Source of the DNA: Ramlibacter rhizophilus
Lineage (GTDB): Bacteria; Pseudomonadota; Gammaproteobacteria; Burkholderiales; Burkholderiaceae_C
NCBI RefSeq assembly: GCF_004681965.1
Contig: NZ_SMLL01000003.1
Location: forward strand, 558,001 to 622,000
Length of the DNA stretch: 64,000 bases
Direction of reading: 5' to 3'
Shown here: piece after piece, positions 44,999 to 50,383 of the stretch
Layout of the letters: each line of letters begins with the position of its first letter
Numbering within the stretch: position 1 is the first letter of the stretch
The notes under the pieces: model-generated
Seen by the model: only the letters and a program-made list of their open reading frames with translations
Databases searched by the model: none
Told to the model about the DNA's origin: nothing
Program-made: the position numbers and the translations under genes

Positions 44999-46153
44999 AT
45001 GTCAGCCGTGTTCGAGAAGCCTCCGCTGTGGCGCCGCGCCGCGCCCCTGCTGCAGGGCTTCGACGGGCCGCTCGCGTTCGCCGTGTTCCTGCTCGCCGGT
45101 GCGGGCCTGCTGGCCATGTATTCCTCGGGGTTCGACCACGGCACGCGCTTCGTGGACCATGGCCGGAACATGCTCATCGCGGGCTTCGTGATGTTCGTGG
45201 TGGCGCAGATTCCGCCGCAGCGGCTCATGGCGTTGGCGGTGCCGCTCTACGTGCTCGGCGTGTCGCTCCTGGTCGCGGTGGCGATCTTCGGCATCACCAA
45301 GAAGGGCGCCAAGCGCTGGGTCAACGTCGGCATCGTCATCCAGCCCAGCGAGTTGCTGAAGATCGCCACGCCCCTGATGCTGGCCTGGTGGTTCCAGAAG
45401 CGCGAGGGACAGCTTCGACCGCTGGACTTCCTCGTGGCCGGCGCGCTCCTCCTGCTGCCCGTGGGCCTGATCATGAAGCAGCCGGACCTGGGCACGTCGC
45501 TGCTGGTCATGGCGGCGGGACTCTCGGTCATCTTCTTCGCCGGCCTGCCTTGGCGGCTCATCGTGCCGCCTTTCCTGCTGGTACTCGTGGGCATGGTGCT
45601 GCTGGTCGCCTTCGAGCCGCAGCTGTGCGAGGCCGGCAACCGCTGGCCCGTGCTGCACGACTACCAGCAGCAGCGCATCTGCACCCTGCTCGATCCCGGC
45701 AAGGACCCGCTCGGCAAGGGCTTCCACATCATCCAGGGCATGATCGCCATCGGCTCGGGGGGCCTGTTCGGCAAGGGCTTCATGCAGGGCACGCAGACGC
45801 ACCTGGAGTTCATTCCCGAGCGCACGACGGACTTCATCTTCGCCGCGTACTCCGAGGAGTTCGGCCTGGCGGGCAACCTGCTGCTCATCGCCGGCTTCGT
45901 GTTCCTGATCCTGCGCGGCTTCGCCATCGCCCTGGAAGGCTCGACCCTGTTCGCGCGCCTCATGGCCGGCGCGGTGACCATGATCTTTTTCACCTACGCC
46001 TTCGTGAACATGGGCATGGTCAGCGGCATCCTGCCCGTGGTGGGCGTGCCGCTTCCCTTCATCAGCTACGGCGGCACGGCCATGGTGACGCTGGGCCTGG
46101 CCCTGGGCATCCTGATGTCCATCGCGCGGACCAAGCGGCTCGTGCAGAGCTAG
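44999..46153 (+). CDS. rodA: Rod-shape SEDS peptidoglycan polymerase RodA
   Basis: 384 residues with about ten membrane helices. SEDS-family signatures are GITKKGAKRWVNVG and QPSELLKI, then QPDLGTSLLV, the catalytic-loop region WPVLHDYQQQRI, and near the C-terminus GVPLPFISYGGTA. RodA polymerises glycan strands in the elongation machinery with PBP2, which in many relatives is encoded just upstream but is not here. The first residues (PPLWRRAAPLLQGFDGPLAF) fit the family start. Confidence 0.95.
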   Translation: MSAVFEKPPLWRRAAPLLQGFDGPLAFAVFLLAGAGLLAMYSSGFDHGTRFVDHGRNMLIAGFVMFVVAQIPPQRLMALAVPLYVLGVSLLVAVAIFGITKKGAKRWVNVGIVIQPSELLKIATPLMLAWWFQKREGQLRPLDFLVAGALLLLPVGLIMKQPDLGTSLLVMAAGLSVIFFAGLPWRLIVPPFLLVLVGMVLLVAFEPQLCEAGNRWPVLHDYQQQRICTLLDPGKDPLGKGFHIIQGMIAIGSGGLFGKGFMQGTQTHLEFIPERTTDFIFAAYSEEFGLAGNLLLIAGFVFLILRGFAIALEGSTLFARLMAGAVTMIFFTYAFVNMGMVSGILPVVGVPLPFISYGGTAMVTLGLALGILMSIARTKRLVQS

Positions 46154-46190
46154 GCTTGTCCCCGGTCCGCAGCGGGTGAGACCTTCACCC

Positions 46191-46196
46191 TAGAAT
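46191..46196 (+). promoter_or_regulatory. Putative -10 box of a leaderless tldD transcript
   Basis: TAGAAT lies five bases before the tldD ATG. The expected start of transcription falls on or next to the A of the start codon. No -35 box or Shine-Dalgarno site is evident. Confidence 0.5.
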
Positions 46197-46201
46197 GCCC
46201 C

Positions 46202-47662
46202 ATGCTTTCCCGCGACCCCACCATCGAACGGCTGGCCACCGCCCAGCGCCTGCTGCTGGAGCCCTTCGGGCTCGATGAATCCCACCTCACCCGCGCCCTG
46301 GCGGAGATCACCCGCCACCGCGTGGACGACGCCGACCTGTACTTCCAGTACACCCGCAGCGAAGGCTGGAGCCTGGAAGAGGGCATCGTCAAGACCGGCA
46401 GCTTCAGCATCGACCAGGGCGTGGGCGTGCGGGCGGTCAGCGGTGAGAAGACCGCCTTCGCCTATTCCGACGACATCTCCGAAGCCTCGCTGCTCGATGC
46501 CGCGCAGACCGTGCGCACCATCGCCGCCGCCGGCCGCTCCGCGCGTGCCAAGGTGCCCGCGCGCCGCGTGGCCAGCAGCCGCTCGCTCTACGACGGGCTG
46601 GACCCCATCGCCACGCTGGACAGCACGGCCAAGGTCAAGCTGCTGGAAAAAGCCGAACAGCTCGCCCGCGCCAAGGACCCGCGCATCGTGCAGGTCATGG
46701 CGGGCCTGGCCAGCGAGTGGGACGTGGTGCTGGTGGCCCGTGCCGACGGCACCCTCGCCGCCGACGTGCGCCCGCTGGTGCGCCTGTCGGTCACCGTCAT
46801 CGCCGAGCAGGACGGCCGCCGCGAGGTGGGCTCCCATGGCGGCGGCGGCCGCTTCGGGCTGGCCTACTTCGATGAAGCCCGCGTGCAGGAGTACGTGGAT
46901 GCAGCGGTGAACGCCGCCCTCACCAACCTGGAGTCGCGTCCCGCGCCGGCCGGCGAGATGACGGTGGTGCTGGGTTCGGGCTGGCCGGGCATCCTGCTGC
47001 ATGAGGCCGTGGGCCATGGCCTTGAAGGCGACTTCAACCGCAAGGGCTCCAGCGCGTTCTCCGGCCGCATTGGCAAGCGCGTGGCGGCCAAGGGCGTCAC
47101 GGTGCTGGACGACGGCACCATCGCCGACCGTCGCGGCTCGCTCAACGTCGATGACGAGGGCAACGCCAGCCAGCGCAACGTGCTGATCGAGGACGGCATC
47201 CTGCGCGGCTACATCCAGGACTCGCTCAATGCGCGGCTCATGGGCGTCAAGCCCACCGGCAACGGCCGGCGCGAGAGCTATGCGCACGTGCCCATGCCGC
47301 GCATGACCAACACCTACATGCTCGGCGGCGACAGGTCGCCCGACGAGATTGTGGCCAGCATCAAGAAAGGCCTGTTCGCCACCAACTTCGGCGGCGGCCA
47401 GGTGGACATCACCTCGGGCAAGTTCGTCTTCTCCGCCAGCGAGGCTTTCTGGGTCGAGAACGGAAAGATCCTGTACCCGGTCAAGGGCGCGACCATCGTG
47501 GGCAACGGCCCCGATGCGCTCACGCGCGTGAGCATGATCGGCAACGACATGCGCCTGGACTCGGGCGTGGGCACCTGCGGCAAGGAAGGCCAGAGCGTGC
47601 CGGTGGGCGTGGGCCAGCCGACGCTGCGCATCGACGGCCTGACCGTGGGCGGCACGGCCTGA
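46202..47662 (+). CDS. tldD: Metalloprotease TldD
   Basis: 486 residues with the TldD-type zinc motif HEAVGHGLEGD near residue 268 and the conserved C-terminal block ENGKILYPVKGATIVGNGP. With its partner TldE/PmbA it forms a heterodimer that degrades unfolded peptides and trims microcins in other bacteria. The partner gene is not in this window. It stands alone between rodA and the aroG leader. Confidence 0.95.
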   Translation: MLSRDPTIERLATAQRLLLEPFGLDESHLTRALAEITRHRVDDADLYFQYTRSEGWSLEEGIVKTGSFSIDQGVGVRAVSGEKTAFAYSDDISEASLLDAAQTVRTIAAAGRSARAKVPARRVASSRSLYDGLDPIATLDSTAKVKLLEKAEQLARAKDPRIVQVMAGLASEWDVVLVARADGTLAADVRPLVRLSVTVIAEQDGRREVGSHGGGGRFGLAYFDEARVQEYVDAAVNAALTNLESRPAPAGEMTVVLGSGWPGILLHEAVGHGLEGDFNRKGSSAFSGRIGKRVAAKGVTVLDDGTIADRRGSLNVDDEGNASQRNVLIEDGILRGYIQDSLNARLMGVKPTGNGRRESYAHVPMPRMTNTYMLGGDRSPDEIVASIKKGLFATNFGGGQVDITSGKFVFSASEAFWVENGKILYPVKGATIVGNGPDALTRVSMIGNDMRLDSGVGTCGKEGQSVPVGVGQPTLRIDGLTVGGTA

Positions 47663-47701
47663 GTGGCCGCACGCCGGTTCCCTGTGCTACATTCCCGCCC
47701 C

Positions 47702-47779
47702 ATGCCTCGCAGCAGCGTTTTCTTCTTCGGCTACTTTTGGTTTTTCTCCAGCCCCGGCGGCCGAGAGACCTGCGCGTAG
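47702..47779 (+). CDS. Aromatic amino-acid leader peptide of the aroG attenuator
   Basis: A 25-codon frame that ends 100 nt before aroG. Codons 7-15 read FFFGYFWFF, that is six Phe, one Tyr and one Trp in nine codons, exactly what a ribosome-mediated attenuator for an aromatic pathway needs. A TACATT box lies eight bases before the ATG and there is no Shine-Dalgarno site, so the leader may be translated from a leaderless mRNA. The last part of the frame (CCCCGGCGGC at 47752-47761) is complementary to the 5' arm of the downstream terminator and could form the antiterminator. The peptide itself presumably has no other role. Confidence 0.85.
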   Translation: MPRSSVFFFGYFWFFSSPGGRETCA

Positions 47780-47807
47780 CCCGAACAGACAGCGCAAGAA
47801 TCCCGAG

Positions 47808-47837
47808 AAAACCGCCGGACCCCCGGCGGTTTTTTTT
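47808..47837 (+). terminator. Intrinsic attenuator terminator upstream of aroG
   Basis: AACCGCCGG pairs perfectly with CCGGCGGTT around a four-base loop, and the stem extends by A-T pairs to 11. A run of eight T residues follows. It lies after the leader-peptide stop and 42 nt before aroG. The 5' arm can instead pair with CCGGCGG inside the leader frame, giving mutually exclusive structures. Confidence 0.9.
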
Positions 47838-47879
47838 CGTCCCCGGCTTTCTTTCCGACCCTTCAGCAAGGAGCTTCCG

Positions 47880-49004
47880 ATGTCCACCGCCCCCAACGCT
47901 TCCGCCGCCGATGACTGGCGCACGCATCCCGTCGACAAGACCAGCCGGACCGACGACGAGCGCATCAAGGACATCACCGTGCTGCCCCCGCCGGAACACC
48001 TGATCCGCTTCTTCCCGATCCGGGGCACGCCGGTCGAGCAGCTCATCTCGGACACGCGGCGGCGCATCCACGACATCATGGCCGGCACCGACGACCGCCT
48101 GCTGGTGGTGGTCGGACCCTGCTCCATCCACGACCCCGTCGCCGCGCTGGACTACGCGCGCCGGCTCAGGGAGGTGCGGGCGCGGCACGCGGACACGCTG
48201 GAGGTCGTTATGCGGGTGTACTTCGAGAAGCCCCGCACCACGGTGGGTTGGAAGGGCCTGATCAACGACCCCTACCTGGACGAGAGCTTCCGCATCGACG
48301 AGGGCCTGCGCATCGCGCGCCAGCTCCTGATCGACATCAACCGCCTGGGCGTTCCGGCCGGCAGCGAGTTCCTGGACGTCATCTCGCCGCAGTACATCGG
48401 CGACCTGATCGCCTGGGGCGCCATCGGTGCGCGCACCACGGAAAGCCAGGTGCACCGCGAGCTGGCCTCGGGCCTGTCGGCGCCGATCGGATTCAAGAAC
48501 GGCACCGACGGGAACATCCGCATCGCCACGGACGCCATCCAGGCGGCCGCGCGCGGCCACCACTTCCTGTCGGTGCACAAGAACGGGCAGGTCGCCATCG
48601 TGCAGACCCAGGGCAACCGCGACTGCCACGTGATCCTGCGGGGCGGCAAGGCCCCCAACTACGATGCCCGAAGCGTGGCCGCCGCCTGCGCCGACCTCGA
48701 AGCCGCGGGCCTGCCGCCGCGCCTGATGGTGGACTGCAGCCATGCCAACAGCAGCAAGCAGCACGAGCGGCAGCTGGAGGTGTCCCGCGACATCGCCGGG
48801 CAGCTCGCGAGCGGATCGCGCCAGGTCTTCGGGGTCATGATCGAAAGTCATCTGGAAGCCGGCGCCCAGAAGTTCACGCCCGGCAAGGACGACGCGAGCC
48901 GGCTCGCCTACGGCCAGAGCATCACCGATGCGTGCCTCGGCTGGGACCAGTCCATGCAGGCGCTGGACCAGCTCGCACAAGGCGTGAAGGCGCGGCGCGG
49001 CTGA
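47880..49004 (+). CDS. aroG: DAHP synthase (class I, AroG type)
   Basis: 374 residues with the class I signatures VVVGPCSIHDPVAAL, RVYFEKPRTTVGWKGLINDP, GARTTESQVHRELASG, GFKNGTDGN and the metal/substrate block VDCSHANSSKQ. It joins phosphoenolpyruvate and erythrose 4-phosphate, the first step of aromatic synthesis. AAGGAG stands before the ATG. An attenuator in the leader makes expression depend on charged tRNAs for Phe, and possibly Tyr and Trp. Feedback specificity cannot be read from the sequence. Confidence 0.96.
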   Translation: MSTAPNASAADDWRTHPVDKTSRTDDERIKDITVLPPPEHLIRFFPIRGTPVEQLISDTRRRIHDIMAGTDDRLLVVVGPCSIHDPVAALDYARRLREVRARHADTLEVVMRVYFEKPRTTVGWKGLINDPYLDESFRIDEGLRIARQLLIDINRLGVPAGSEFLDVISPQYIGDLIAWGAIGARTTESQVHRELASGLSAPIGFKNGTDGNIRIATDAIQAAARGHHFLSVHKNGQVAIVQTQGNRDCHVILRGGKAPNYDARSVAAACADLEAAGLPPRLMVDCSHANSSKQHERQLEVSRDIAGQLASGSRQVFGVMIESHLEAGAQKFTPGKDDASRLAYGQSITDACLGWDQSMQALDQLAQGVKARRG

Positions 49005-49015
49005 GCCGGCAGGCG

Positions 49016-50383
49016 TCAGCCCAGGGCCTGCAGCAGCCGGCCGTGGATGCCGCCGAAGCCGCCGTTGCTCATGCACAGCACTTGGTCGCCTTCGCGCACC
49101 TCGGCCAGCACGAGCGCGAGCAGGGCGTCGATGTCGTCCGCCACCCGGGCCCGCGGCCCCATGGGCGCCAGCGCCTCGCGCGGGTCCCAGCCCAGGCCGC
49201 CGGCATGGCAGAAGGCGAGGTCGGCCTGTTCCAGGCTCCAGGGCAGCTGGGACTTCATGGTGCCCAGCTTCATGGTGTTGCTGCGCGGCTCGAACACCGC
49301 CAGCAGGCGCTGGCCCGGTGCGAGCCGCCGGCGCAGGCCGTCCACCGTGGTGCGGATGGCGGTGGGGTGGTGGGCGAAGTCGTCGTAGACGGCGATGCCG
49401 CGCACCGTCCCGCGCAACTCCATGCGCCGCTTGACGTTGCGGAACTCGCCCAGCGCCCGGCAGGCGTGCGCGGGCGCCACGCCCAGGTGATCGGCGGCGG
49501 CGATGGCGGCCAGGGCATTGAGCTGGTTGTGCACGCCGCCCAGAGCCCACTCGACGCGCCCGCAGACCTTGCCGCCCTGCAGCACGTCGAAAGCCTCCGG
49601 TTCGCCCCGCGCGGTGAAGTCGCTCACCGCCGCGCCGAAGCTGCGCACCTCGCTCCAGCAGCCCGCGTGCAGAACGCGCGTGAGGCTTTCTTCCAGGCCG
49701 TTGACGACGACACGACCGCTGGCCGGGACCGTGCGCACCAGGTGGTGGAACTGCCGCTCGATGGCCGCCAGGTCGTCGAAGATGTCCGCGTGGTCGAACT
49801 CCAGGTTGTTCAGGACGGCCGTGCGCGGCCGGTAGTGGACGAACTTGCTGCGCTTGTCGAAGAAGGCGGTGTCGTACTCGTCGGCCTCGATCACGAAGGG
49901 CCGTCCTTGGCCGAGGCGGGCCGAGACGCCGAAGTTCACCGGCACCCCACCCACCAGGAAGCCCGGCGACAGCCCCGCCTGCTCGAGGACCCAGGCCAGC
50001 ATCGAGGTGGTGGTGGTCTTGCCGTGCGTGCCGGCCACGGCGAGCACATGGCGGCCCTGCAGCACATGCTCGGCCAGCCACTGCGGGCCGCTGGTGTAGG
50101 GCTGGCCGGACTCGAGAATGGCCTCCATCAGCGGGAATTTCGGCGAGCCGTCGGCCTGGCGGGCGCGCGAGACCACGTTGCCGATCACCCAGACGCCGGG
50201 TGCCAGGCTCATCTGGTCAGTGCCCCAGCCCTCGATCAGCTCGATGCCCAGGGCCCGCAGCTGGTCGCTCATGGGCGGATAGACACCGGCGTCGCAGCCG
50301 GTGACGCGGTGCCCGGCCTCTCGCGCCAGCGCGGCCAGGCCGCCCATGAAGGTCCCGCAGATGCCCAGGATGTGAATGTGCAT
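49016..50383 (-). CDS. mpl: UDP-MurNAc:L-alanyl-gamma-D-glutamyl-meso-DAP ligase
   Basis: 455 residues of the Mur-ligase fold. The N-terminal Rossmann start is HILGICGTFMGGLAALAREAGH, the ATP loop is VAGTHGKTTTTSM, and further blocks are NNLEFDHADIFDDLAAI, GVHNQLNALAAI and YDDFAHHPTAI. The GTFMGG variant and the length distinguish Mpl from MurC. It recycles cell-wall tripeptide onto UDP-MurNAc. A GATAAT box lies eight bases before the ATG on the minus strand. The gene converges on aroG, with only 11 nt between stops. Confidence 0.95.
   Translation of the reverse strand: MHIHILGICGTFMGGLAALAREAGHRVTGCDAGVYPPMSDQLRALGIELIEGWGTDQMSLAPGVWVIGNVVSRARQADGSPKFPLMEAILESGQPYTSGPQWLAEHVLQGRHVLAVAGTHGKTTTTSMLAWVLEQAGLSPGFLVGGVPVNFGVSARLGQGRPFVIEADEYDTAFFDKRSKFVHYRPRTAVLNNLEFDHADIFDDLAAIERQFHHLVRTVPASGRVVVNGLEESLTRVLHAGCWSEVRSFGAAVSDFTARGEPEAFDVLQGGKVCGRVEWALGGVHNQLNALAAIAAADHLGVAPAHACRALGEFRNVKRRMELRGTVRGIAVYDDFAHHPTAIRTTVDGLRRRLAPGQRLLAVFEPRSNTMKLGTMKSQLPWSLEQADLAFCHAGGLGWDPREALAPMGPRARVADDIDALLALVLAEVREGDQVLCMSNGGFGGIHGRLLQALG

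Follow-up and report, generated by a model that had tools for sequence, protein, structure and literature searches.

The window analyzed here, a 64,000-nucleotide stretch of a Ramlibacter rhizophilus contig, carries aroG at positions 47880 to 49004 of the + strand. The predicted product of 374 amino acids was identified as a class I DAHP synthase (Pfam PF00793, 1.7e-92; TIGR00034, 1.8e-160). Upstream, the stop codon of tldD lies at 47660 to 47662. Downstream, a Mur ligase family gene at 49016 to 50383 on the − strand is convergent with aroG, with 11 nt between both stop codons; it contains three Mur ligase domains according to Pfam and is presumably Mpl-like.

The tldD-aroG gap, read directly from the sequence, houses a 25-codon frame, a terminator, and an upstream CCGGCGG segment, all on the + strand. 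The leader peptide frame, MPRSSVFFFGYFWFFSSPGGRETCA, extends from the ATG at 47702 to the TAG at 47779 (25 codons plus TAG; relatives are compared below) and includes the run FFFGYFWFF at 47720 to 47746, composed of eight aromatic codons and one Gly codon, which are the putative control codons. Still inside the frame is CCGGCGG at 47754 to 47760 (segment 2), assigned from its sequence and from comparative pairing as the 5′ strand of an antiterminator. Segment 3, AAAACCGCCGG, at 47808 to 47818, consists of AAAA (47808 to 47811) followed by CCGCCGG (47812 to 47818), which would serve both as the antiterminator 3′ strand and as the terminator 5′ arm. After the loop ACCC, the terminator 3′ arm CCGGCGG (47823 to 47829) and eight T residues (47830 to 47837) complete the element at 47823 to 47837, the hairpin being located about 150 nt beyond the end of tldD. 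Since segment 2 has the same sequence as the terminator 3′ arm, it pairs with the same 5′ arm at 7/7 positions. The antiterminator and the terminator both need this arm and are therefore mutually exclusive. The original prediction, which had placed a 25-codon frame with FFFGYFWFF, a perfect terminator with eight T residues, and an in-frame segment complementary to the terminator 5′ arm in this gap, was borne out on all three points, with coordinates correct within a base or two.

The predicted fold of positions 47686 to 47850 had an energy of −58.4 kcal/mol (z = −3.0), and 0/200 shuffled sequences folded as low. A rule-based terminator scan of the locus reported no terminator, which was taken as a limit of the rule, as it counts the first T residues as part of the stem.

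Aromatic leaders upstream of aroG in relatives

The comparative sample comprised 135 aroG upstream regions of the order from 25 families, made up of 29/30 loci of a first set, 27 new loci, and 79/80 further places; L026, which is cut off before the gene start, and L060, which repeats L028, were left out. Most regions represent the best-matching aroG copy of a genome, while two genomes contributed two copies. As in the window, an intrinsic terminator of the form CCGCC..GGCGG-T between leader and first gene, together with an upstream GG(C/T)G(G/A/C) segment, was found in 85/135 regions, distributed over 13 families. Of these regions, 81 contained a leader with at least five Phe, Tyr, or Trp codons in 10 codons. 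They came from 12 of the 25 families sampled, and in 13/25 no aromatic leader was found at the copy examined. When the 85 regions were resampled with a Markov model, such an aromatic frame arose in the same stretch in 53/4,250 cases, versus the 81/85 observed. Phe codons were present in all 81 aromatic leaders, Tyr codons in 77, and Trp codons in 51. Both the short frame with its run of codons for products of the pathway and the position of this run, at a similar place relative to the antiterminator segment, were conserved in the 81 leaders.

Among 22 leaders of the genus, a seven-codon block varied solely at second and third codon positions, and 183/265 pairwise second-position differences were Phe versus Tyr; the run stayed aromatic. 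Beyond this aromatic character, the sequence of the leader peptide was not conserved.

The four terminator-bearing regions without a rich run were L009, with a broken frame, and L056, L126, and L100, with four, three, and one aromatic codons, respectively. L009 lacks one T that its close relatives have in the Phe codon run, and the frame is thereby lost; this is perhaps an assembly error. In family f44, to which L126 and L100 belong, leaders with one (L349) and four (L353) aromatic codons were also found, and an extra T in L351 breaks the frame that is present in L350; L350, L354, and L356 have five or six aromatic codons. In several f44 regions with fewer aromatic codons, a promoter-like sequence, the GGCGG segment, and the terminator persist, and these leaders may be decaying or re-tuned sensors. 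Relatives that keep the terminator and lack the aromatic codons had been named in advance as evidence against attenuation. This combination is absent from 81/85 regions and was seen in L009, L056, L126, and L100, plus L349, L353, and L351 of f44.

A separate arrangement was observed in family f28, where L104, L116, and L129 have a different terminator, GCACCC..GGGTGC with a T run, approximately 190 to 200 nt before aroG. It lies near short Phe-rich frames with non-ATG starts and is possibly another kind of leader before aroG.

Predicted transcription start

In the family to which the window belongs, an extended −10 element (TGnTAnnnT) ended 6 to 8 nt before the start codon in 31/32 leaders. 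In the exception, L031, the −10 element was 14 nt from the chosen ATG and 8 nt from an in-frame upstream ATG. The predicted element of the window, TGCTACATT at 47685 to 47693 of the + strand with the hexamer TACATT at 47688 to 47693, is the best −10 candidate in the 50 nt upstream of the leader ATG. The spacing of 6 to 8 nt predicts that transcription starts within about 3 nt of the AUG, which in the window would be near 47700 to 47702, and the leader transcript in this family is thus probably nearly leaderless. The same spacing was observed in families f13 (4/4), f23 (5/5), and f4 (4/5), as well as in f12 and f40, each represented by one leader; f10 was mixed. In f3, f8, f11, f20, and f32, the 18 nt preceding the leader start contained no −10 element, the best candidate being at least 19 nt away or absent, and a near-leaderless start is therefore not general.

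With a start at or near the AUG, as predicted, the terminated RNA would be a small leaderless mRNA resembling rnTrpL as described in PMC7298713. By analogy, this RNA or the leader peptide might also work in trans, adding to attenuation and not replacing it. Against a trans role stands a peptide sequence that is conserved only in its aromatic character, and we regard such a role as unlikely.

Conservation and covariation of the competing pairings

The GGCGG:CCGCC core was unchanged in 76/85 regions, and the other nine differed by one base. At the base flanking GGCGG, the combination across segment 2, segment 3, and the terminator 3′ arm was C-G-C in 41 and T-A-T in 24 of the 85 regions, followed by T-G-C with a wobble pair (3), T-A-A (2), and C-G-A (1). 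The flanking antiterminator pair was broken in 14/85 (C-A-T in 7, A-A-T in 6, and G-A-T in 1). Thus, as judged from the aligned regions, a single antiterminator pair shows covariation across families, being C:G in some and U:A in others.

An alignment of 47 sequences (A1) was used for the antiterminator and terminator pairing tests. For the antiterminator, 94.2% of cells paired, compared with 14.9 to 59.7% when the strands were slid, and 16 double changes were counted, all at one pair (16/47 rows with both sides changed). Neither the number of pairs with double changes (1, against a shuffled mean of 1.2) nor the number of pair types (5, against 5.2) was above that of shuffled alignments, and the covariation evidence for the antiterminator in these sequences comes from that one pair. 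For the terminator, 96.6% of cells paired, with 21 double changes at two pairs. In a set of 13 sequences, each from a different family, 3/2,000 between-family swaps matched the pairing beyond the core. An extension of the antiterminator by GAGAG:CUC was not established, 163/1,000 swaps being as good. Conservation in A1 was confined to the columns of the GGCGG segment and the terminator, and no additional conserved domain was seen. The conserved leader and pairing that the original prediction suggested seeking in Burkholderiales relatives were both found.

The minimum-energy fold of the window also contains a candidate protector hairpin at 47739 to 47770 of the + strand, in which GGTTTTTC pairs with GAGAGACC and CCGGCGG lies in between. 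In a longest-helix swap test, 420/1,000 swaps were as good, positional tests gave 25 to 61 of 1,000 swaps, and the column count was no better than controls in a part of A1 where the columns are not well aligned. A 1:2 protector hairpin at the element was not established by these tests, its comparative support being weak.

In four leaders of the genus (L012, L013, L017, and L019), the GGCGG stretch is read in another frame, giving PAVE in place of the GGRE of the other genus leaders. GGCGG is therefore conserved as nucleotides and not as codons. The same observation bears on the idea that the signal is not codon starvation but a nascent peptide that arrests the ribosome on sensing a ligand, in the manner of TnaC. 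The same competing RNA structures would serve such an arrest, and the run is very hydrophobic. However, arrest peptides usually need fixed residues, whereas here Phe, Tyr, and Trp interchange and the residues past the run differ, some of them being encoded in another frame (GGRE versus PAVE), which makes peptide arrest very unlikely.

Placement of the aromatic codons

For each leader, a fold was computed in which the RNA was masked as far as 13 nt past the first nucleotide of the codon at which the ribosome stalls, the 13-nt ribosome edge being an assumption. With a stall in the middle of the run, the antiterminator had a modeled probability of >0.5 in 80/81 leaders. The corresponding counts were 73/81 for a stall at the first codon, 60/81 for the last codon, 37/81 with no ribosome, and 0/81 with the ribosome at the stop codon. 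The zeros at the stop codon, like those from codon −4 on, follow from the masking rule. In this model, folding without a ribosome does not on its own discriminate between the two states.

Counted in codons from GGCGG, the aromatic fraction was 0.57 to 0.95 at positions −12 to −5, the value at −5 being 0.83; it then dropped to 0.25 at −4 and to 0.01 at −3. Codon −5 is the last at which the assumed 13-nt edge leaves GGCGG free. Since the aromatic fraction falls where the mask reaches GGCGG, the control codons appear to fill just the stretch in which a stalled ribosome would leave segment 2 free. With the same edge, segment 2 would be left free by stalls at 346/381 Phe, 121/131 Tyr, and 52/54 Trp codons of the 81 leaders.

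The antiterminator pairing predicted without a ribosome in 37/81 leaders would also suit premature termination under the control of an RNA-binding protein or of a small-molecule riboswitch, to which the frame is incidental. Such control would not account for aromatic codons that end where the ribosome edge would matter, nor does it fit with conserved columns limited to the GGCGG segment and the terminator. Rfam, including its amino-acid leader families and the T-box, gave no match at the gathering score in eight loci. Taken together, these data render control of this kind highly improbable. In the window, a search of positions 46000 to 49500 with E values up to 10 returned four sub-threshold matches (nhaA-II, RNAI, mir-49, and RsmW), of which RNAI overlaps the element at 20 bits versus a gathering score of 47. 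No Pfam or NCBIfam model matched the four leader peptides tested.

Range and specificity of the element

A covariance model of the element was searched against 299 genomes of the order with an E value cut of 1e-7. It matched 78 genomes, with one match each, and 77/78 matches were directly before aroG. By coordinates, 63 adjoined aroG; the other 15 were fetched, and 14 were found to have aroG directly downstream. The remaining match (L352 in G197), which has no aromatic leader of the kind and is not before aroG, looks like a chance match. Training sequences for the model had been supplied by 40/78 of the matched genomes; in the 38 outside the training set, 37 matches were before aroG. An aroG of this type was present in 238/299 genomes of the order. 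The count of 78 is a lower bound, as G199 (L036), with both leader and terminator present, was missed at the cut.

A class-wide sample of 281 genomes gave four out-of-order matches better than 1e-7, in families f59 and f64. In the two orders to which these families belong, 17/81 genomes (f59 and f206) and 3/79 genomes (f64) were matched, and all 20/20 loci were located before aroG with an aromatic leader present. Within the genome of the window, the aroG leader was matched at an E value of 2.5e-12, and the next-best match of the model had an E value of 5e-4. The three candidates for further copies in this genome that were inspected (L139, L140, and L142) were rejected; an aromatic leader is absent from each, and they resemble ordinary terminators.

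A pattern scan of named genomes, which requires F-F/Y-F and gives no frequency, returned at least 118 stretches. Among the matches listed, 39 had aroG within 400 nt downstream, and 38 of these had a leader with at least five aromatics, the exception being L220. Seven further listed sequences end within 300 nt, five of them with a leader of 7, and the 72 listed without aroG downstream were taken as chance. Among the matches listed, the genera in which the leader was found before aroG include Burkholderia, Caballeronia, Paraburkholderia, Massilia, Rugamonas, Janthinobacterium, Hydrogenophaga, Acidovorax, Ramlibacter, and Oxalobacter. The megaplasmid aroG copies examined, from Cupriavidus and Burkholderia arboris (two), were without the element. 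The one E. coli aroG upstream region examined had no such leader or terminator, and the sole model match in that stretch was weak, on the other strand, and downstream.

The end of tldD at 47662, about 150 nt upstream of the hairpin, could be taken to mean that the hairpin is a plain tldD terminator next to a chance aromatic frame, but this was rejected as contradicted by the comparative data, in which 16 of 56 loci searched have the element before aroG with no tldD in the 1,500 nt upstream, five loci (one in f6 and four in f32) have tldD upstream of aroG without the element, and resampled sequence seldom yields the frame (53/4,250, as above).

DAHP synthase copies

In the genome of the window, aroG was the only class I DAHP synthase match, and no class II DAHP synthase was found by search. 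A second DAHP synthase gene, 52 to 60% identical, is present in 17/24 genomes of the same genus and is not in this genome. The second aroG copies of the genus (L293 to L311) carried the element in 0/19 cases; L305 has a chance frame with five aromatics and no terminator. In family f32, the one second aroG copy examined does carry the element. A mixed response is favored by the search result of a single class I DAHP synthase with no class II counterpart in the genome, and we infer that the leader would answer to the supply of Phe, Tyr, and Trp jointly.

A proposed attenuator of aroG

We estimate a probability of roughly 90% that aroG is controlled by a ribosome-mediated transcription attenuator, as originally predicted. 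The predicted −10 element close to the leader start in this family, the occurrence outside the order, and the lack of the element at the 19 second aroG copies of the genus go beyond the original prediction. Aromatic leaders in 81/85 terminator-bearing regions, the covarying antiterminator pair, and the location of 77/78 model matches before aroG all argue for this reading. The frame, both competing pairings with their conservation and covariation, the placement of the codons, and the link to aroG are established from the sequence. From these, we infer that the leader is translated, where transcription starts, that ribosomes stall and transcription terminates, and which amino acids are sensed.

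In the proposed mechanism, transcription would begin at or just before the leader start codon, and a ribosome would trail RNA polymerase through MPRSSVFFFGYFWFF. If charged tRNA for Phe, Tyr, or Trp is scarce, the ribosome would stall at the aromatic codons, leaving CCGGCGG at 47754 to 47760 free to pair with CCGCCGG at 47812 to 47818. The antiterminator so formed would block the terminator, and aroG would be transcribed. With a good supply, the ribosome would reach the stop codon and cover or disrupt the CCGGCGG segment, the hairpin at 47812 to 47829 with its eight T residues would form, and the transcript would end near 47837.

The pheA, pheST, and trp leader attenuators of Enterobacteria likewise have codons for the end product in the leader, a terminator, and a competing antiterminator. 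The aroG element shares with them a leader frame rich in end-product codons, a terminator before the gene, and a competing antiterminator. It differs in that it would control the first common step, DAHP synthase, in that its leader combines Phe, Tyr, and often Trp codons, and in that it is found in Burkholderiales and parts of other orders. In the thr and ilvGMEDA attenuators, one leader carries codons for more than one end product of a branched pathway, a property shared with the aroG element, although the amino acids and genes differ. The control of E. coli aroG acts on the same enzyme class for the same purpose and differs in its use of TyrR, a DNA-binding regulator. In Sinorhizobium meliloti, according to PMC7298713, rnTrpL begins with the leader start codon and trpE(G) is under attenuation, not repression. 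The likeness of S. meliloti trpL (rnTrpL/peTrpL) lies in an RNA that begins at the leader start codon, as predicted for the aroG leader; trpL has Trp codons and controls trpE(G).

No description of this aroG attenuator was found in the open-access literature searched, and novelty holds within that scope; a web database of predicted attenuators, cited in PMC1173090, may list it. The novelty lies in the gene controlled, the three-amino-acid run, the probable near-leaderless start in the family of the window, and the range, while the type of mechanism is old.

Expression data for Ralstonia solanacearum are given in PMC6379268. There, expression of the aroG1-lacZ and aroG2-lacZ fusions rises about 10- to 20-fold upon deletion of the respective other gene. 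Addition of 1 mM Phe reduces these elevated levels 2- to 3-fold, and Phe has a slight effect in the wild type (47 to 40 and 49 to 41 units). Neither “attenuat” nor “leader” occurs as a word beginning in the main text of that paper. This behavior fits that expected of an attenuator, the presence of the element in that species being putative.

A farther-reaching proposal, which we hold only tentatively and consider rather doubtful, is that, in a large fraction of Burkholderiales and in parts of two or more further orders, a single, nearly leaderless Phe-Tyr-Trp leader forms the main transcriptional gate into the shikimate pathway, replacing the E. coli arrangement of isoenzymes plus TyrR/TrpR, and that the terminated RNA of ∼138 nt, starting at or next to the start codon, may act in trans.

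The attenuator reading provides a concrete, testable account of how flux toward aromatic amino acids may be adjusted in many Burkholderiales. If the element is present in Ralstonia, it would explain the reported effect of Phe on aroG expression. If the reading is true, the leader would also serve as a natural sensor that is compact and responds to three amino acids simultaneously.
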